A DNA stretch of 64,000 nucleotides from Jatrophihabitans sp. (lineage in GTDB: Bacteria > Actinomycetota > Actinomycetes > Mycobacteriales > Jatrophihabitantaceae), in NCBI GenBank assembly GCA_036399055.1, contig DASWNX010000008.1:59929-123928 (forward strand), in the 5' to 3' direction. This document shows, piece by piece, positions 45,221-58,188 of this stretch. A model generated the notes under the pieces. It made no database searches, had not been told where the DNA came from, and was given only the letters and a program-made list of their open reading frames with translations. The translations under genes and the position numbers were made by a program. Numbering within the stretch: the stretch's first letter is position 1; every line of letters begins with the position of its first letter.

Positions 45221-45294
45221 CGCGGGGTGGAGCAGCTCGGTAGCTCGCTGGGCTCATAACCCAGAGGTCGCAGGTTCAAATCCTGTCCCCGCTA
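45221..45294 (+). tRNA. Initiator tRNA-fMet (CAT)
   Basis: 74-nt cloverleaf, anticodon CAT at 45255-45257. The anticodon stem ends in three G:C pairs (GGG / CCC) and the first base C1 is not paired with its partner, both hallmarks of the initiator. T-loop GTTCAAATC is standard. CCA is not encoded. A strong terminator follows and the accessory island begins right behind. Confidence 0.93.
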
Positions 45295-45300
45295 CTGTCA

Positions 45301-45451: not shown

Positions 45452-46411
45452 CTACAACGTAAGCTGGCGAAGCCCGCTCGTCGCAAACTCGTCCACGATT
45501 AAAAAGGCCTTGCCAAGTTCGCTAAGGGTTAGTTCGAGGCGGTAGTAATCGACCTCGCCGGCCGAGTTGCTGTAGGGACGAATGCCCATTGCCACGCGAC
45601 CACGACGCCAGTCGTCGAAGGACACGGTGAAGTACTGCTCGCCTTCATCCCAGGTTGAGCATTCCTGCTCGTATTGGTCGTGGTCGGCTTCGTCGTAGGT
45701 CTGCTCGTGGACGTCGACGTCCGCCCACGCGAAGAACTGTGGAATTGACTCTGCATAACTCGTAGGGCCGACCCACAGATGCCAAGCCACGAGTTCCTCT
45801 GGTTCGTTGCCGTCCTCATGGTCGATCCCAATCGAGATCGAGCCGCGACCAGAGCTCTTGTTGATCCACTCCTCGAAGTCGACGACAAGACGCGTACCGT
45901 CCGCCAACATTTCCATCCAGGGCTTAGCCAGCCGAAGTTCGCGGACGCGTAGCTCGTAGGGATCGCCGTCCGCTGCATTGCGCCATGCCTCAGCTGCATT
46001 TGCGTCGAGCAAATTTGTCTCAGGCACGCGTAGCTTCCAACCGCCGTTCTTGCTCTGCTCGAGGGTCGTAGCGTTGACGAGCTGCTAGTGGCATGCCTTG
46101 CTGACCGGGTTGTATAGCACGACGGCGATGGGCAGCGAGTGGTGCGACCAGTACGTGACATGGTCTTCGTCTGGGCGGTACCACCAGCCACCGTCGGTCG
46201 GCTCTCGAAACCAGCTTGCGCCACTCTTGATCTGAAGGGCGAGCAGGCGACCGCGGACGTTCTCGCCATCGACGATCTCGACGTGGGCATCTATGCCGTA
46301 GTCCTCTGTCGGCTGTCGGCGGAACAGCCATTCGAGTTGCTCTTCGACATACAGCTGCGTTCGCGTGACGCCGACGCTTGCGACCTTCGCTGACGGTTTT
46401 CGGATCGGCAC
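45452..46411 (-). pseudogene. DUF4365 nuclease-like gene interrupted by an in-frame amber codon
   Basis: Read from GTG 46411, the frame is open to a TAG at 46085-46087 and continues in the same frame, without other stops, to 45452. Part 1 (108 residues) has the DUF4365 core: YGIDAHVEIVDGENVRG and LLALQIKSG (QxK), with DHVTYWSHHSLPIAVVLYNP. The stop stands in ...KACH(stop)QLVNATTLEQ where the family usually has Trp, so TGG to TAG is likely. Part 2 goes on with GGWKLRVPETNLLDANAAEAW. An intact gene would give 319 residues. DUF4365 is a PD-(D/E)XK-like domain common in defence islands. Confidence 0.75.
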
Positions 46412-48851: not shown

Positions 48852-49205
48852 TCATGACGTCTCATCTTGGCTGGTGGCGTCTCGGACGAATCGCTCGATG
48901 TCGAAGCCATGCTCGGTCAGTCGCCGTTCTGCGGCGTCTCGCTCAGCGTCGGAGAACAATCCCTGATACCAAGGGAGCAGCACGAACGCCTCGACGCTGA
49001 CATCGAGTCGACGGTGCTCCCGCAGCGTCGTAAATCCATCACTGGCGTCTCTGCCCTGCAGGAGCTGCCGTGCTGCGGCGGGCCCCCCGTGCTCGCTGAC
49101 CATCTGCATGAACCGCGTCGGGTTGTAGCCGATCTCGCGCTTCAGTCGTTCTGCGCCGGTCACCGTATCTCGGTGAAATCGTTGCTCAAGCTGGGTCATG
49201 GTCAT
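48852..49205 (-). CDS. Small protein with the LKREIGYNPTRF motif
   Basis: 117 residues; the start overlaps the stop of the RAMA gene (ATGA). Conserved-looking stretch: ERLKREIGYNPTRFMQMVSE, HGGPAAARQLL, DGFTTLREHRRLDVSVEAFV and LPWYQGLFSDAER. I have seen this module as a stand-alone protein or at the end of restriction-linked proteins; its function is not established. No catalytic motif visible. Confidence 0.6.
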   Translation of the reverse strand: MTMTQLEQRFHRDTVTGAERLKREIGYNPTRFMQMVSEHGGPAAARQLLQGRDASDGFTTLREHRRLDVSVEAFVLLPWYQGLFSDAERDAAERRLTEHGFDIERFVRDATSQDETS

Positions 49206-49600
49206 GAGTAGCGGATCTCTTGCAGCAGGCGGCCGGTCCCATCGTTGATCGTCCAGAACGACCAGCCGTTGCGGTTGGGGGAAATGCTCGGCTTATAGTG
49301 GCCGACAATGGCTCGTGCAGCGCCGGTCGGCGTCTTAAAGCTGCGGCCCGCCAGCGGACCTGAAGTCACATCGATACGCTTCGTCTGCCTGTCATACGCC
49401 GCGTCCGTCCGATGTCCTTCGTACGTGACAAAGACAGGGACGCTAGCCCCTGATACGTCGGCTGCCGCCTTTGCCGGCTCGGGCAGGCTCGCAGCCGCCA
49501 CCAGCTTTGCCACGACCGCGCCGGTCGAAATGTTGCCGATGCGTGCAGCGAACTCCAGCGACCGGTAGGTCTGATCATCTACCTGAACCATTGCTGCCAT
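49202..49600 (-). CDS. RAMA-domain protein
   Basis: 132 residues from ATG 49600 with GAGGAG 7 nt upstream. N-terminal half resembles a small helical DNA-binding part (QVDDQTYRSLEFAARIG). The second half has GRSFKTPTGAARAIVGHYKP and NGWSFWTINDGTGRLLQEIR, the Ser/Thr-Ala-Ala...NGW-FW pattern of RAMA domains (restriction enzyme and adenine methylase associated). RAMA domains are thought to recognise modified DNA. Coupled to the next gene. Confidence 0.6.
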   Translation of the reverse strand: MAAMVQVDDQTYRSLEFAARIGNISTGAVVAKLVAAASLPEPAKAAADVSGASVPVFVTYEGHRTDAAYDRQTKRIDVTSGPLAGRSFKTPTGAARAIVGHYKPSISPNRNGWSFWTINDGTGRLLQEIRYS

Positions 49601-49711
49601 GCGCCGCTCCTCGTTCGCCGTGTGCAAGGAGCCTAGTAGGCCAGAGTACGTAACGCAAATAGAGAACGCATACGGAGAAATTTGCATGGTGAGGGCATCT
49701 GCTATCCCGGA

Positions 49712-50031: not shown

Positions 50032-51195
50032 TCAGACGTCGGACTCGTCGTTTAGATCCTCATCAGGGCCCTCGCGAAGGGTGGCTCCGAACCGCAAATC
50101 GAATCGTTCCTTGCCCAAGGCGGCCTTGAGCTTATCGTAAAGGTCGGATCGCAGGATGAGGTCGGCGCCGTGGACTCCTGGGACGAGGGGGTCGTAGTTG
50201 CCGTCGTGGACGAGGAAGCCGCGCCACACGCGGCCGACAAGAGCAGGCCCGTCGTCGTCAACAAGAACGTGTCTCAGTGCGGGGCGCTCCGGGCGTAGCC
50301 CTAGGAGTACGACGACCTCGAACCTCGGAGTCAGAGCGAACGGGTGGAGGCCGACGCCTCGCTGACGGTGAGGCGCACCCAGCTCGAGGTTGTAGTCGAC
50401 GACCGCGGCAAGCGGCCCCCCGGCCGCGAGGGCTGTGTGCGCGTCGCGCGAGTCCAGGTCGGGGTCGAGCCGGTTGTGTGGTGCAATCCAGGCCAGTGGA
50501 CGTGCCGCGGCGAGCGGGAGGCTTCCGTCGGACGGGTTGCTGCCAGGTGCCTCGAGACCGGCCACGATTAGCAGCCGCCGCGTGGGAACGTCGGGGTAAG
50601 TGCTGGCGAGAGTCGCTTGCCGCTCAAGCAGCCCCAGCTGGACCCAACCGGCGTACGGTTCCTCGACAACCCGCACCGGCTCGTCGTTTGTACCGGCCAG
50701 CTGCTTGGTCTCGGCAACGGCACCAGGCGGTGGCCACTTCGAATCGTCTTCGACCCAGGGAATCGGGCTCAGTGACCACCACAAGCCCTCTGGCCGGGTC
50801 GGGGGCCGTGGCACGCGGGACGCTTCCTCACGCATCGCCCACTGCGCGGACGGCGCCAGTCGACGTGCCAGCACCTGCTCGAACCGGACAGGGTCGCGCA
50901 TTCGGCCACCCTCGAGCGCTTGCGCGGTGCGAAGGCCGGCGGCTCCACGCTGGAGTTCGTCCTCGAGCACAACCTCATCGTGGAGGTACGCGTCAGGCAT
51001 CCGCGTCGAAGACGCCGACCTCAACTGGCTGAGTTGCCCACTGCCCCGTTTACGGACTTCCTCGACCCTGTCCTTCAACGCTTCGACGACGGCTTGGCGA
51101 AGCCCGGGCGGTTCATTCGCCAATCCGAGTCGTTCGTCGAGGAAGGAACGGACAAGGCCCTCCGCGTGCTCGCGCGACTCGCCGTCCCGAGTCAT
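50032..51195 (-). CDS. Unknown protein, partner of the STAND protein
   Basis: 387 residues from ATG 51195, overlapping the stop of the 1783-residue gene by 4 bp (ATGA). Acidic, soluble. Helical N-terminus (EGLVRSFLDERLGL, VVEALKDRVEEVRKRG) and a beta-rich rest with PEGLWWSLSPIPWVEDDSKW, YAGWVQLGLLERQ, HTALAAGGPLAAVVDYNLEL and GRVWRGFLVHDGNY. No nuclease, protease or nucleotide motif that I recognise. Tight coupling implies it works with the large protein. Confidence 0.75.
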   Translation of the reverse strand: MTRDGESREHAEGLVRSFLDERLGLANEPPGLRQAVVEALKDRVEEVRKRGSGQLSQLRSASSTRMPDAYLHDEVVLEDELQRGAAGLRTAQALEGGRMRDPVRFEQVLARRLAPSAQWAMREEASRVPRPPTRPEGLWWSLSPIPWVEDDSKWPPPGAVAETKQLAGTNDEPVRVVEEPYAGWVQLGLLERQATLASTYPDVPTRRLLIVAGLEAPGSNPSDGSLPLAAARPLAWIAPHNRLDPDLDSRDAHTALAAGGPLAAVVDYNLELGAPHRQRGVGLHPFALTPRFEVVVLLGLRPERPALRHVLVDDDGPALVGRVWRGFLVHDGNYDPLVPGVHGADLILRSDLYDKLKAALGKERFDLRFGATLREGPDEDLNDESDV

Positions 51196-54100
51196 CGCGT
51201 CTCGTCCATTAAGTCGTTAAACGCAGCTCGGACCGATGGCGCTGGCTCACTAGCGGGTAGTTCGGGCACCGGTCGGTCATGGGCTGTCAAGACCGAAGTG
51301 GCGGCTGCGCGAACCGACAGGAAGTCGGTAGCCGCCAGCTGGGTTGCGACCGCGGCCAGATCGTCGGTCAGGTCGCCCTCACGCAGGCAGGTACGAACCA
51401 CGTCCAGCAGCCAGGTGGCACGGCCGCTGTCGAGGTCGGCAGCCAGGACATGTGCGACCGCGGCCTGGCCGACGTCGGGTCGGCAGGTTAGCAAGAGCGT
51501 GCTGGCAAGAAGCGCCTGGCGGAGGTCTGCGCGCATCGGCTGCGCAACCGTCGCAACTGCTAACGTTGCCATCGCAACGGCGAGCATCTCGGCCAAGTGG
51601 GGCGTCGCGGTTGGCCTGTACGTGTGGCCGAACCGGTCTGCGTCACCGGGCAGGCGGTTGCTGATGACGGCGAACGCCGCGTTCCAGCACTCGGCCGCGG
51701 TGCCACAAGCGGAGTTGTCACCGGCGCCGATCGCGCCGGTCGGGGTCACGGTGAGCGCGGCGACGATGGCCTGGGTGACGCCGTAGGTGCTCGTGGCTTT
51801 GCTGGCGACGGTTCCGGCGACTGCAGCCGCCAGCGCGGCTTCCGCGGTCCTGGGGTCTAGAGCGTGGGCAGTGGCCCATAGGTCGGCTCGCTCTCGGCCA
51901 GCGAAGGCGCGCCACCCACCCCCGCCACGGATACGGATGTAGGCGAGCGACAGACAGTACGCTGCGACCTTCCTCAGGTCCTTCTTCGGTTCTTCCTTTG
52001 CCTCCCCGTCAAGGTCCTCCGACGGCGGGCCGTCGGCCCGGAGCGCGAGACCGGCACCGATAACCGCGAAGAGCTCATTGTCGGAATAGGTGGCCACTTC
52101 GCGAGCGATGCCATCGATAAGTTCAATGCCTGCTGCGGCTCCATGGTTGATAGTCGCCTCAATGATCCGCCAGCCGATGGCGTTTGCGAGCGCATCGATC
52201 GTCCAGCTAGGCGCGACGATCTCGTCGCGGTACCGCTTTTTTTGATGCTCGCGCGCGGCTAGTACAACACCCGCACGTCCCTCGGGAATCACCGGCCGTT
52301 GGTCGCTGACGATGCGCTTCTGTAGTTCCAGCGGATCCGGGCGGGACTCGGAGTCCCAGCGCCGACTGGAGCGGTCGTCCTCGGGTCGTGGCGTACGAGA
52401 TGCGAACGACGGCCCGCCGAGCGTGACGACGGCGTCCACCAGTTCCGGCGTGACGACTGCGGACGATTGGCCGCTGGCATAGCGCATCGCTTGGTCGTCG
52501 TAGCTCGCGGCGACGTTGTTGGCGACGATAGCGAGCATTGCGTCCGCGTTGGGGCTGGCTCCGAGCTCGCCGGCGAGCCGGGTCAACAGCTCGGTGTCCG
52601 TGCTCGGGTCCCGCCAGCTCATCCCAACGGTGAGGCGCAGCGCTGCGAGGACAATGGGGTCGCCGGTCGAGACTTGGTGCGCTAGGAGATGCTTGTGCGC
52701 GGCGTGTGCCCGCGAGTCTTCGAGCCCAACGGTGCTGAGCAGTACGTCAGCGCCGTCCATCGCGGCCGCGGTCGGGTCGATATCGGCCGCACGTTCCCAC
52801 CACTGGTTGACGTAGTGGGAGGTGTCGCGACCGTCGGTGTGTTGTACGACGAGATAGACGAGGTCGACAAGCTTGGCAAGGCTGTTTCGGGCGACATCGA
52901 GGTCGGCAGAGGCGATGTCCTCGAGGCTGTCGGTGAGCTCGGACAAGGTCGGGTCCTTGTGTCCGCCGTAGCAAGAGAGGAAGTGGCACGCTCTGTGCCA
53001 CCTCGCGGCAGCTTCGGCGGTTGCGTCCGCGGCATGGCATATACGAGCGAGGGCAAGCTCGAACGCGGCTGACTCTCCGTACCCCGCGTTGGCGTCCTCG
53101 CGCCGTTCCTCGACGACGTCCAAGAGCGCATGGACGGACTCAACTCCGATGTGGTCCGATGCCCTGGCCAAGATGTCGAGCAGGTCGTTGGTAACCAGCG
53201 GCCCGCTCGGTGGGGTGCCGAGGTTGGTGACGGTGGTGGTTCCGTCGCCGATGGAGATGAACCGTACGAGGATCTCATCGAGGTCATCGGGATCTACGAC
53301 GGCGAGTGAGTTCTCGATTACCTGGTGGATGAGTGGGTGGATGAAGTAGAGCCTGCTCGCATCGGGGTCACCGATGAACGGGCTGTGCGACTGGGCGGCG
53401 AGGTCATCCAGCGCGGCGAGTACGGCGCTGGATGCTGCTTTGGGAGCGATCGCGTCGTTCGCGACATCATCGGCGAGACCGACGGTAGCGACCGCGTAGC
53501 GCAGCCAGGCGCGGTAGAAGCCGGGGCCGCCGAGCTTGCCCAACTGCTTGAGCGGCAGGGACCGGTCGATCCCGTGCGCCAGGGCGAGGAGCGACAACCA
53601 GTGCCCGACGTCCGCCTCCTTGACCGACCCGCTCGCGAGCACCGCGTTGGTCGCGGTGTTGAGCTCGTCGTCGAGGTCGGCGCACCCCATACCCGCCACG
53701 ACGTCGGTCGGCGCGATGCCGTGCTTGAGGTAGCAGGCGATGTTGAGTCCCGGCGCCCTGTTCCATGCCTCGCGGGCAAGGTCGGACGCGGCGGGCAGCC
53801 CCGGTTCGCCGGTGGCGGCGAGGTCAGCGAGTGTCAGGTACACCTGCGCGGCCTTGCTTGGGTCGGTCATCGCAGCCGCAACTTCGAGCATCATTCCAGC
53901 AGGGAGCCCGGAGGCGAACACCTCGACGAGCTCGCCGAGCGATGCTTCATGGTCCCACTGGAGGTGCGCTGCGATCTCCTTGACGAATGTGGCCGGATAG
54001 TCGCGCCGCTGGGCGCGGAGACGAAGCGCACCACGTTGGAGCGCGAGCTGGAGACTGCCGTCGCTGTCGGAGGAGTACTTAGTGCTGCGCTCGGACTCGG

Positions 54101-56543
54101 ACTTCCACGCGTCCATGTAGGCCTTCCACGGCGCGGCGGCACCGGCCCGGTCGACGGAGGCGCAGATACGCAGACCCCAGCGAGCCTCGAAAGTGGTTCT
54201 GCCCTCGTACATCATCCTCTCGGCGACGGCATCGGCGCCTAGGATGGCCACCACGACGTCTGCGTACTGGACAATGGAGTCTGTCAGCGACTCGCTCTCG
54301 TAGGTGTCGATAGACTTGCGTGTCTCCACGCAGGTGATGAGAGTGGGCCAATCAAGGCGCATCTGGCTCTCGCGAGCGACGATGCCGACCACCTTCGTGA
54401 GCGCTTCGGGCGGCTGGAATGCTTCAATGGCGTCGGCAACGAACCCAGGTTCGATAAGGGCTTTCAGCTCGTCGTATCTGTTCAGGCGCGCGAGCAGGTC
54501 AGGCAGGTGCCGGAACGCGCGGGCATCGGCGAGGAACCCCCGCGCCGTCAGCCAGGCGGCCACGGCTTGCCGGATGGATCGGACCGCTCCAGAGTCCCAA
54601 TCGCGAAGGATATGTCGGCTGAAGCTCTCATGGTGGATACGGAGTCCACCGAGACTGGGCTGAGAGTTCAAAACCGGTGCCAGCGTGTCGAGCGCCGGAC
54701 CAAGCAGGGGCTTGACGGCAGGCAGGACCTCGCCGAGTTCGTCGGCGGACAACGCGAAGTCACACAACGCCAGGGTCCTGATTGCGTAGTGCTGGCCTTC
54801 CGTCATTCCCGCCAATAGGTGCTTGTAGTAAGCGTCAAGGTCGTTGGCGCTAACCGGGACCTGCATGAGCCGGCCAACCATGTCGATGGCAGTCACCGGC
54901 TCGCTGCCAGCGGCTTCCAGAGGCGAGACGCGTGTGGCGTGTCGGCACAGGTAAGTGGCGTAGAGGGCGTTCCCGCCGGACCGTTCATGGACGAGGTCGA
55001 CGATGGCGCGTTCGTCGTCCTCATCGACTGCGTCGCCCCTACCTGGCGGGGGAAGGACTCCGTGTTTGACGGCGAGCGTGTGCACTTCGTCCCGCGACAT
55101 ACGCGGCATTCGGACCGATCCACCAGCGCCGCCCGAGCCACTGAGACCGTTGGATAGGTCGAAACTAGCCAGGTGTGGACCTGGTTGACTGGCGAGAAGG
55201 AGGGATACGCCTGGGGGTAGGTCTATGCCAGCAAGCTCATCGACAAGCAATCGAGAGGGGTCGGCAGCTTGATTGGTGTTCCGTCCGAGAATGCGGTCGA
55301 TGTGGTCGAGGCCATCGACGATGAGGAGTACGTTGCGCTCCTGATCGATCTCACGGCACCGGCCGACAGCCCAGGTGAGCGCGTCGATGGTCGCGGCGAA
55401 CCTCGGCTGTAGTCCCACGGTAGCCCCAGGCATCGCCTTCTCGAGCTGGCGCAGGAGGCTGCCGATGACAACATTGGTCAGAACTCGCCGCTCGGCCTGG
55501 TTGACGTCGTCGCGGCCGAGCCAGCAGTGGTGCCTGGCGACGATCCACCCCTCTTGACGGTAGGTGTCGGCGAGCTGCTCACACAGCCACGACTTCCCGA
55601 CGCCGGGTTCGCCGGTGACCACGACTCGGCCACCGGCAGGGGTGACCAACTCGATGTGCTTGCTGACCTCAGCCGCTGCGCCGTCGCGATGGACGGCGAC
55701 AGCGGCCTCTACGGGATGGCCTTCGACAACTGCGCCGAAGTCTGTGACCAGGCCCAATTCAGGGAGAAGTTTGCCGCGGGCAACCATCCCGTCGATTGCG
55801 CGTGCGCCGGTGGCAGCGCTCGCGAGCGCTCGCGCGACGCTTTCCGGCGAGATGCCGGAGTTCGGAGGCCGGCCGGCACCGAGCTCTTCTGTGGCGCGTC
55901 GCAAGAGCACGCGTTCGACCTGACCTGGGTCGGCGAAGCTGAGGGAGGACTGTGGCGCATTCGTGTCGATGACCAGTTGCCGGCACACGCCGTCGAGCTC
56001 CTGCTTGCTCAGGTGAGAGACTAGGTCCTTCCACGGCGAGCTGGCCGCAAGCTCCTCCGGATCAAACTGGTACCTGGAGGTCGACAGTCCTACGAGGGGA
56101 TCGCCGAGATCCCGGCCGACGTCGATTGGCTTGAGAACTCTTGCAAGGTCGTCCTCGGGGTGTCCGTCGCGAACGACGACACGGAATGTCGTCTCTGGCG
56201 CGTCGGTCAGGTCGTGGAGGACGGAGTTGAAGAGTTTGTCCAGCTTCAGGTTGCGGGCATCTGCTGTGAACGTGGCCTTCGTCAGCTCGCGGTCGGTAAC
56301 GGTGTGCTTGATTTGCAGACGGACGCGTCGGCGGCCACGGAAAGCGATGGTGAGGTCGTCGAACCGGTCGCCCGCGAACCTCTTGGCGTCGACAGTGACG
56401 GACTCGGCGGACCCGAGAGCAAGATCGACGAGCGCGATACCGCATACGAGGTCCTGGTAGGCGTACCCGTGGTGCGTGGCCCTCAAGTTCAATGCGGTCC
56501 TCCGGCCATCCCAAGCCCTGCGATTCGAGCTCCCCGGGCTCAT
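51192..56543 (-). CDS. Avs-like STAND NTPase with Cap4/DUF4297-like N-terminus
   Basis: 1783 residues from ATG 56543. Residues about 20-110 resemble the Cap4/DUF4297 nuclease: HHGYAYQDL (25-32), DRFDDLTIAF (59-68) and VRLQIKHT (74-81, the QxK). A STAND-type NTPase follows: Walker A GEPGVGKSW (311-319), Walker B VLLIVDGLDHID (405-416), LLLASQPG (448-455). Residues about 520-1783 are helical, without known motif, and would be the sensor. Nuclease, STAND module and long helical sensor is the layout of Avs antiviral proteins, which recognise phage proteins. No membrane helix. The partner gene is coupled behind it. Confidence 0.78.
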   Translation of the reverse strand: MSPGSSNRRAWDGRRTALNLRATHHGYAYQDLVCGIALVDLALGSAESVTVDAKRFAGDRFDDLTIAFRGRRRVRLQIKHTVTDRELTKATFTADARNLKLDKLFNSVLHDLTDAPETTFRVVVRDGHPEDDLARVLKPIDVGRDLGDPLVGLSTSRYQFDPEELAASSPWKDLVSHLSKQELDGVCRQLVIDTNAPQSSLSFADPGQVERVLLRRATEELGAGRPPNSGISPESVARALASAATGARAIDGMVARGKLLPELGLVTDFGAVVEGHPVEAAVAVHRDGAAAEVSKHIELVTPAGGRVVVTGEPGVGKSWLCEQLADTYRQEGWIVARHHCWLGRDDVNQAERRVLTNVVIGSLLRQLEKAMPGATVGLQPRFAATIDALTWAVGRCREIDQERNVLLIVDGLDHIDRILGRNTNQAADPSRLLVDELAGIDLPPGVSLLLASQPGPHLASFDLSNGLSGSGGAGGSVRMPRMSRDEVHTLAVKHGVLPPPGRGDAVDEDDERAIVDLVHERSGGNALYATYLCRHATRVSPLEAAGSEPVTAIDMVGRLMQVPVSANDLDAYYKHLLAGMTEGQHYAIRTLALCDFALSADELGEVLPAVKPLLGPALDTLAPVLNSQPSLGGLRIHHESFSRHILRDWDSGAVRSIRQAVAAWLTARGFLADARAFRHLPDLLARLNRYDELKALIEPGFVADAIEAFQPPEALTKVVGIVARESQMRLDWPTLITCVETRKSIDTYESESLTDSIVQYADVVVAILGADAVAERMMYEGRTTFEARWGLRICASVDRAGAAAPWKAYMDAWKSESERSTKYSSDSDGSLQLALQRGALRLRAQRRDYPATFVKEIAAHLQWDHEASLGELVEVFASGLPAGMMLEVAAAMTDPSKAAQVYLTLADLAATGEPGLPAASDLAREAWNRAPGLNIACYLKHGIAPTDVVAGMGCADLDDELNTATNAVLASGSVKEADVGHWLSLLALAHGIDRSLPLKQLGKLGGPGFYRAWLRYAVATVGLADDVANDAIAPKAASSAVLAALDDLAAQSHSPFIGDPDASRLYFIHPLIHQVIENSLAVVDPDDLDEILVRFISIGDGTTTVTNLGTPPSGPLVTNDLLDILARASDHIGVESVHALLDVVEERREDANAGYGESAAFELALARICHAADATAEAAARWHRACHFLSCYGGHKDPTLSELTDSLEDIASADLDVARNSLAKLVDLVYLVVQHTDGRDTSHYVNQWWERAADIDPTAAAMDGADVLLSTVGLEDSRAHAAHKHLLAHQVSTGDPIVLAALRLTVGMSWRDPSTDTELLTRLAGELGASPNADAMLAIVANNVAASYDDQAMRYASGQSSAVVTPELVDAVVTLGGPSFASRTPRPEDDRSSRRWDSESRPDPLELQKRIVSDQRPVIPEGRAGVVLAAREHQKKRYRDEIVAPSWTIDALANAIGWRIIEATINHGAAAGIELIDGIAREVATYSDNELFAVIGAGLALRADGPPSEDLDGEAKEEPKKDLRKVAAYCLSLAYIRIRGGGGWRAFAGRERADLWATAHALDPRTAEAALAAAVAGTVASKATSTYGVTQAIVAALTVTPTGAIGAGDNSACGTAAECWNAAFAVISNRLPGDADRFGHTYRPTATPHLAEMLAVAMATLAVATVAQPMRADLRQALLASTLLLTCRPDVGQAAVAHVLAADLDSGRATWLLDVVRTCLREGDLTDDLAAVATQLAATDFLSVRAAATSVLTAHDRPVPELPASEPAPSVRAAFNDLMDETR

Positions 56544-56710: not shown

Positions 56711-56920
56711 TCAGTAATGGCGACCAGCTGGCTTGATGGGAACTCCCGCTGCATAAAGGATCTTCAGTACGGTCGCCTTGCCCATCCCGAGTGCCAGCGC
56801 GATGTTGCGCATCGACTCACCGCGTTCATACCTCGCCGTCACGTCCATGATTAAGCCAGCCGTCACGCGAGTGCGGACGTACCGGCGTGGGTTGGCGAAC
56901 CGGGACGGCTCCGACGCCAC
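56711..56920 (-). CDS. Small HTH protein, resolvase-like DNA-binding domain (69 aa)
   Basis: Start GTG 56920 with GAGGG 7 nt upstream; the open frame further up runs across a terminator and is ignored. 69 residues: EPSRFANPRRYVRTRVTAGL, then ARYERGESMRNIALALGMGK and ATVLKILYAAGVPIKPAGRH, a Hin/resolvase-type helix-turn-helix. No recombinase catalytic part is encoded. It may be a regulator of the adjacent STAND unit or a leftover of a mobile element. A decayed copy lies at 49712-49921. Confidence 0.65.
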   Translation of the reverse strand: MASEPSRFANPRRYVRTRVTAGLIMDVTARYERGESMRNIALALGMGKATVLKILYAAGVPIKPAGRHY

Positions 56921-56994
56921 AGCAGCACCCTCCGCCGAGAGGCACGCGATGTTCAACGAAACCCGACTCAGGACTACCACAAGTAGTCGGTTTA

Positions 56995-57025
56995 AACCAG
57001 CGCCCTCAGGGCGCTGGTTTTTTCG
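56995..57025. terminator. Bidirectional terminator behind the ycaQ-like operon
   Basis: AAACCAGCGCCCT 56995-57007 pairs with 57009-57021, followed on the plus strand by TTTT. It lies 33 nt after the YcaQ-like stop (minus strand), where the tail is only TTT, so it may work on both strands. Confidence 0.7.
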
Positions 57026-57057
57026 TTGCAGGGCCTTAGAGCCACGCACGTCGTTAA

Positions 57058-58188
57058 TCAACTCGACGGGATGACGTCCTTCATCTGCGCCGTGAGAATG
57101 GCGACTGCACTGGCAACGCCGGCGGCCAGATGCGCTTCATCGACTTCGGGTTCGGCAAAGGATCGAATCACCTCGAGTGCACCCGCCTGTCTTCTGAGAT
57201 CGACTCGGCCCAGCATGCGGCCGTGTGTGTCGAGCACTCCCATCACGTAATGGCCGTAGACCCTTTTGTGGGCTGGCTTGTAGGCCTCGAAGCTGTAGTC
57301 GAAGTCGTGGACGCGGCGGGTGCGGTCGCGGTCCCAGATGAGGTTGTCGAAGGGGCCGATCAGGCGGGCTTCCGGCAGGAGCTGGTGTGCGGGTGGGTCC
57401 TTCTGCAGCGTCCAGGCCGGTGTGGGCCAACCTTGGACCGTGACTGGGTTGGCTCCGCAGCTCGCCAGGCCTTCGGCGGCTTCGGCGGTGGTCAGGTTGT
57501 AGTAGACGGCGACGTCCTGGGTGGTGGCGACGCCGGTCGCGTTCAGGACCCGGGTGGCGATGGTCTCGAGGATGGCTTCGCGGGATAGCTCGGTTTCCAG
57601 GACGGATTGGGGGAGGCGTCGTTCGGGGAGGTCATAGACCCGTCGGTTTCCCCGGCGCTCGCTGCAGATCAGCTCGCCGCACCAGAGCAGGTGTTCAGCC
57701 GCCCGTTTGCGCTCAGACCATTCCCACCCGTCAGTGCGCGGGCCGGCCCCCTCGATCTCGCGGATCGTGACGCCGTGTTCGCTGCCACCCACGATGGCCA
57801 GCACCTCCGCGCATGCCGCCTCATCCGGCTTGCGTTCGCGGTCAGCGGTCTTGGCTCGCGCCAGGCGGAGCAGCGGCCAGTCTTCGGCGGGCACCAGGCA
57901 GGCCGCGTGCACCCAGGTCTCGAAGGCACGGGCTGGACCGCTAGACCACAGCCCACCGTCGACGGATTCCACGGAGGCGTTCGCCGGCATCCGCGCCAGG
58001 CAGGTCAGCCGGTGGGCCCGGTCGACGCGGCGCAGGGCGTCGAGTTGCAGCAACCCCAGCCGACGCAAGACCCTGGCGCTGTCCTTGGCAGGCTCGCCGC
58101 CGAACTGGGCTGCCACCACCAACGCGCGTGCCTCGGCCGCGCTGAGGTCAGCAGGCTCCCCGCCGGCTTGAACAGGGGGAGATTTCAC
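57058..58188 (-). CDS. YcaQ-like winged-helix DNA glycosylase
   Basis: 376 residues, GTG 58188 overlapping the upstream stop (GTGA). HTH_42 family: RLGLLQLDALRRVDRAH holds the QxD catalytic motif, and IGPFDNLIWDRDRTRRVHDF with YEFSFEAYKP-like YSFEAYKPAHKRVYGHY and VDLRRQAGAL are strongly conserved. YcaQ/AlkZ proteins unhook interstrand crosslinks or remove alkylated bases. The operon has two small genes upstream. Confidence 0.88.
   Translation of the reverse strand: MKSPPVQAGGEPADLSAAEARALVVAAQFGGEPAKDSARVLRRLGLLQLDALRRVDRAHRLTCLARMPANASVESVDGGLWSSGPARAFETWVHAACLVPAEDWPLLRLARAKTADRERKPDEAACAEVLAIVGGSEHGVTIREIEGAGPRTDGWEWSERKRAAEHLLWCGELICSERRGNRRVYDLPERRLPQSVLETELSREAILETIATRVLNATGVATTQDVAVYYNLTTAEAAEGLASCGANPVTVQGWPTPAWTLQKDPPAHQLLPEARLIGPFDNLIWDRDRTRRVHDFDYSFEAYKPAHKRVYGHYVMGVLDTHGRMLGRVDLRRQAGALEVIRSFAEPEVDEAHLAAGVASAVAILTAQMKDVIPSS

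Follow-up and report, generated by a model that had tools for sequence, protein, structure and literature searches.

Two overlapping genes of Jatrophihabitans sp. probably encode one Avs3-like bacterial NLR

We analyzed a stretch of 64,000 nucleotides (hereafter the window; all coordinates are positions within it) from contig DASWNX010000008.1 of Jatrophihabitans sp. (assembly GCA_036399055.1). Two overlapping open reading frames (ORFs), here called gene A and gene B, are present on its minus strand. Judging from their sequences, A and B together probably encode one Avs3-like bacterial NLR. The features of the locus are as follows.

51192..56543, minus strand: gene A, 1783 amino acids (aa); nuclease, STAND part and long C-terminal region, probably an Avs3-like receptor
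55749..56486, minus strand: residues 20-265 of A, Cap4-type PD-(D/E)XK nuclease
56307-56369, minus strand: nuclease motif residues D59/D62/D63...Q77-x-K79 of A
54564..55730, minus strand: residues 272-660 of A, STAND NTPase and winged-helix part
55590-55613, minus strand: Walker A of A, GEPGVGKS
55302-55331, minus strand: Walker B of A, VLLIVDGLDH
51195..54563, minus strand: residues 661-1783 of A, C-terminal region
51192..51195, minus strand: ATGA, the stop of A overlapping the start of B
50032..51195, minus strand: gene B, 387 aa; putative C-terminal domain of the receptor, encoded separately

The two ORFs and their ATGA junction are present as given in a preliminary description of the window, and the five motifs read there in A (GYAYQDL, DRFDDL, LQIKH, GEPGVGKS and VLLIVDGLDH) are all found in its translation. 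In an alignment of A homologues (64 rows including the window), H24, G26, Y27, Y29, Q30, D31, D59, D62, D63, Q77 and K79 are invariant, as are P313, G314, G316, K317, D410, G411, D413 and H414. Because their residues are invariant across the 64 rows, these motifs are not due to chance. The N-terminus of A models as a Cap4-type nuclease, in agreement with the Cap4/DUF4297-like N-terminus described earlier. According to the accessible part of PMC11291478, the DUF4297 nuclease uses D40, Q53 and K55; the counterparts in A are D62/D63, Q77 and K79. The fold and the D...Q-x-K arrangement are shared with the CBASS Cap4 and DUF4297-HerA nucleases, whereas in A the nuclease is joined with a STAND switch instead of SAVED or HerA.

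The nuclease lies N-terminal to a NACHT-like NTPase with Walker A, Walker B and a winged-helix part, and the earlier assignment of a STAND-type NTPase holds. Pfam reports P-loop NTPase families on A, the best of which is NACHT (1.8e-08, above its cut-off), and the fold of this part matches NLR, plant NLR, Apaf-1 and Avs3 structures. Fold comparisons were VIA-align realignments of the folds on Foldseek's list and cover these listed folds only. As for the 1200-residue helical rest attributed to A, it is helical up to residue 772, where the model ends.

B was described earlier as a partner of unknown fold. This is ruled out, because the predicted fold of B matches Avs3 residues 1716-2049. The nuclease/STAND layout of the earlier interpretation stands, while B is probably an Avs3-like C-terminal domain rather than an unrecognised partner. 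Family models are silent on B: Pfam gives nothing better than E 0.18, and no PADLOC or NCBIfam family was found. Among the window proteins, PADLOC gives marginal P-loop matches for A, without reaching Avs3.

Genome contigs were scanned with a six-row A alignment, and 210 relatives were found. The locus counts are based on the best 80 of them; together with one plasmid, these represent ten phyla according to the record titles. Twenty-five loci show the split layout and 48 the fused layout; in the other seven, the contig or frame ends before the domain region, and these were left out of the readable set. B is therefore carried, split or fused, by all 73 readable loci. The fused loci comprise 44 that matched a profile built from 23 separate B proteins (including L057, whose frame ends inside the domain), three with the frame broken before the domain (L063, L065 and L068), and L096, which no B profile matched and which was assigned by eye from its last 170 residues. 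The first B profile found L072 (E 9.5e-9), L078 (2.2e-4) and L088 (3.4e-5) weakly, and a second profile with fused members added missed all three. Four loci (L042, L059, L060 and L068) duplicate other loci exactly or nearly so.

At the end of A, 24 of the 25 split loci have NTGA with the B frame starting on it. The 25th (L029) has a broken A frame, and the B frame stops early in L025 (325 aa), L027 (268 aa) and L061 (116 aa). Since single-chain relatives exist, the overlap could be suspected to be a frameshift that sequencing or assembly introduced into a single-chain gene. It is almost certainly not one, because the overlap, with B's own start, is conserved in those 24 loci of different genomes, and every row of the window's clade in the phylogeny is split.

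The phylogeny is based on the nuclease-STAND part of 64 rows. Besides the window, these are five earlier loci and 58 from the set of 80, of which the other 22, mostly near copies, were left out by hand. The rows are labelled split (20), fused (37) or unlabelled (7). The split/fused label needs three changes on the tree, forced by well-supported branches. The window's clade contains 17 rows, all split and all actinobacterial. Holding the actinobacterial and gammaproteobacterial split rows together was rejected (p-AU 4e-80), as was holding together the actinobacterial split rows and L086, a long branch (p-AU 1e-6). The groups in these topology tests were set by gene layout, but after inspection of the tree, and unlabelled rows were outside the count. 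The phylogeny indicates that the same receptor has been split at a single domain boundary no fewer than three times. The simplest account is that a single-chain ancestor was cut three times; as the root was placed at the midpoint, we only infer the direction of change.

B might instead have its own function as an enzyme, a toxin or an inhibitor of A, outside the sensing end, and the fused forms might join two functions. B is a separate gene in 25 of the 73 readable loci. On a Rhodococcus koreensis plasmid (L011, 11773-13062), an unannotated and seemingly intact B ORF adjoins a mere 60-residue remnant of A, probably as a decayed copy. We consider an independent function of B improbable. Across 57 B rows, W184 and W324 are the sole invariant residues, without the invariant polar set that an active site would show; B falls in none of the families searched, and its predicted fold matches the Avs3 C-terminus.

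The PADLOC models of AVAST type 3 describe a large protein, Avs3a, of 2090 positions and a small second gene, Avs3b, of 238 positions. For comparison, ten Avs3a or Avs3a-like proteins were aligned (L120 plus nine loci on plasmids, of which two carry the annotation avs3a; L130, which has no annotation, was excluded). With hhalign, residues 1-772 of A match the N-terminal part of this ten-row alignment (E 4e-21, 667 columns), and B matches its C-terminal part (E 5.2e-5, probability 67%, 320 columns). B against the N-terminal part gives E 0.36, and reversed controls give 0.48 and 0.35. The link between B and Avs3 came from the fold match and this ten-row alignment. In profile comparisons, the alignment of 29 fused relatives with Avs3a extends over 1881 columns (E 1.5e-21), and the split A profile aligns to Avs3a 1-1697 (E 4.9e-13). 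The Cap4-type nuclease, STAND NTPase, long C-terminal region and C-terminal domain are in the same order as in Avs3 (SeAvs3, PDB 8dgc). The difference is that the C-terminal domain is here a separate gene.

Since avs3b overlaps the end of avs3a in several operons, B could by its equal position be regarded as the counterpart of Avs3b. This is very improbable and was rejected: hhalign gives E 0.8 for B against eight Avs3b or Avs3b-like proteins, versus the match to the Avs3a C-terminus given above, and an eight-row Avs3b profile, which matches all of its own rows, has no match at E <= 1 in the window or the 80 loci. The structure model of B already points to a protein unlike Avs3b.

Several facts, the missing Avs3b among them, weigh against an Avs3 identity. 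The PADLOC Avs3a model (PDLC02167) has no match in the own genome at E <= 1, while it finds an Avs3a in one of 369 genomes around G804 (1990 bits). PDB sequence searches did not find Avs3, and hhalign of B with one individual Avs3a sequence gave no match (E 0.36). The split B profile (16 close rows) against whole Avs3a aligns at the expected place, 1727-2080, with values that are weak alone (E 0.017, probability 2.6%). The domain arrangement of A differs from that of Avs3 (root-mean-square deviation 21.1). Besides, the N-terminal profile of A matches the plasmid proteins L121 (E 1.2e-24), L122 (3.3e-25) and L123 (5e-26) more strongly than Avs3a, and L121 and L123 match the Avs1b model (1.9e-8 and 1.4e-31). 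Because the N-terminal part is nearer to these three proteins than to Avs3a, "Avs3" names the layout of the family more safely than a branch. B has no match in the C-terminal stretches of L121 (E 0.3) and L122 (E 0.51), and a weak one in L123 (E 0.037). L123 (6362-12514) is a 2051-aa protein of a Rhizobium gallicum plasmid with an Avs1b-like STAND part, an A-like N-terminal half and a weakly B-like end, and is perhaps a further Avs type.

The STAND core is shared with Avs1b of AVAST type 1, and L013, L014 and L016 match Avs1b models there (E 3.1e-8 to 1.2e-5, far below the NCBIfam cut-off). Avs1b is, however, a trypsin-like protease with a separate nuclease, Avs1a, according to the accessible part of PMC12799240, whereas A carries the Cap4-type nuclease, not a trypsin-like protease, N-terminal to its STAND part. 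The pair is thus Avs3-like by layout, fold and whole-length profile match. The lack of a match to the Avs3a model and of Avs3b places it outside AVAST type 3 as the type is presently modelled. In the literature searched, which leaves most subscription papers outside, no title or abstract opening names a split Avs3, and the names Avs3a and Avs3b do not occur.

Among 61 genomes searched as relatives (the own included), A is found over its length in the own genome only, and two others match short stretches. A search of 394 genomes of the class detected B, at a level far better than chance, in two further genomes: G308 has it next to A, and in G101 it ends a single long chain that includes A. On plasmids, Pseudanabaena has the fused form (2005 aa), and Pseudoalteromonas and Moraxella have second genes of 287-290 aa that overlap the first. 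Viral contigs gave no match.

Many members of the family are in multicellular actinobacteria, and phage records have no match for A. These facts would suit a STAND signalling ATPase of host physiology, or another conflict system, instead of anti-phage defence. We think this rather unlikely, in view of the Avs3 layout and nuclease, the patchy presence with plasmid copies, and the neighbouring genes. As neighbours, 187 ORFs of 120-1000 aa were called with a simple longest-ORF rule; each locus contributed at most two from its upstream side and one from its downstream side, and four loci were left out. A PADLOC scan of 127 of them matched 304 families at E <= 1e-5, including PglZ, BrxL, GajB and type I methyltransferases, versus seven families in 104 control ORFs from 20 stretches of actinobacterial genomes. 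Because families and not proteins are counted, many models overlap and the control is not phylum-matched, the enrichment of defence genes is a trend, not a rate.

By computation only, the anatomy, the ancestry shared with Avs3a and the repeated split are demonstrated. B probably belongs to the sensing end; its sensing role, the trigger and the A-B complex are what we infer. According to the accessible parts of PMC11291478 and PMC10952240, SeAvs3 tetramerises when its sensor domain is occupied by a viral protein, and the N-terminal nucleases are thereby brought together. The target of Avs1-3 is the large terminase and that of Avs4 the portal (PMC12724215, accessible part), and both phage and host genomes are cut (PMC12931631, likewise). 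We expect that A and B are translated in coupling and assemble, with B on the end of A as in the single-chain relatives; the fusions and the tiling suggest so. The composite end would bind a conserved phage protein, the large terminase being a first guess from the Avs1-3 trigger. Ligand binding would free the STAND switch for ATP binding and oligomerisation, and the clustered Cap4 nuclease domains would cut DNA and stop infection, probably with the cell. Among 16 hand-picked protein pairs of the split clade, mean pairwise identity falls along the chain: 55.5% in the nuclease, 54.0% in the STAND part, 49.5% and 45.9% in the halves of the C-terminal region, and 44.8% in B. This would be expected if the far end meets changing ligands, and may be taken as weak evidence for it.

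It is possible, though doubtful, that the receptor is a bipartite NLR. B, as part of the sensing end, would be a separate, possibly exchangeable subunit that captures the phage protein and only then docks on A, assembly itself being the switch. Selection for a two-part receptor would lie behind the independent splits in actinobacteria, gammaproteobacteria and one further lineage, and the whole family would be its own Avs type outside the present models. One Avs3-like NLR encoded by two overlapping genes is the reading we prefer.

Other features were seen in the window. Upstream of A (56711-58188), one ORF of 116 aa shows weak helix-turn-helix matches, and another gene encodes an AlkZ-like DNA glycosylase (PF06224, 3.4e-44). 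A 161-aa ORF at 49202-49687 has weak C-terminal matches to PADLOC PDC-S14, PtuB and the RAMA domain. A short 108-aa DUF4365 ORF at 46085-46411 (E 1.2e-27) covers part of the family model, and PADLOC Aga_REase models also match it. DNA similarity to two relatives (G395 and G397) ends at the 3' end of a tRNA-Met at 45221-45295. G395 carries a 45-base copy of the tRNA-Met end ~5.1 kb farther along (L152), an arrangement like that of integration sites; a second copy was sought in the window and none was found. A promoter scan found nothing.

The analysis brings out a broad Avs3-like family, with 210 relatives in one pattern scan, not named by the models tried. The new points are that the split has recurred and that the underlying family is so large. 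The split offers a natural route to express or swap the C-terminal end apart from the nuclease and the switch, and to probe its role. It is also a caution: where a defence operon has a conserved second gene, this gene may represent an ancestral domain of the first one, not a new partner.
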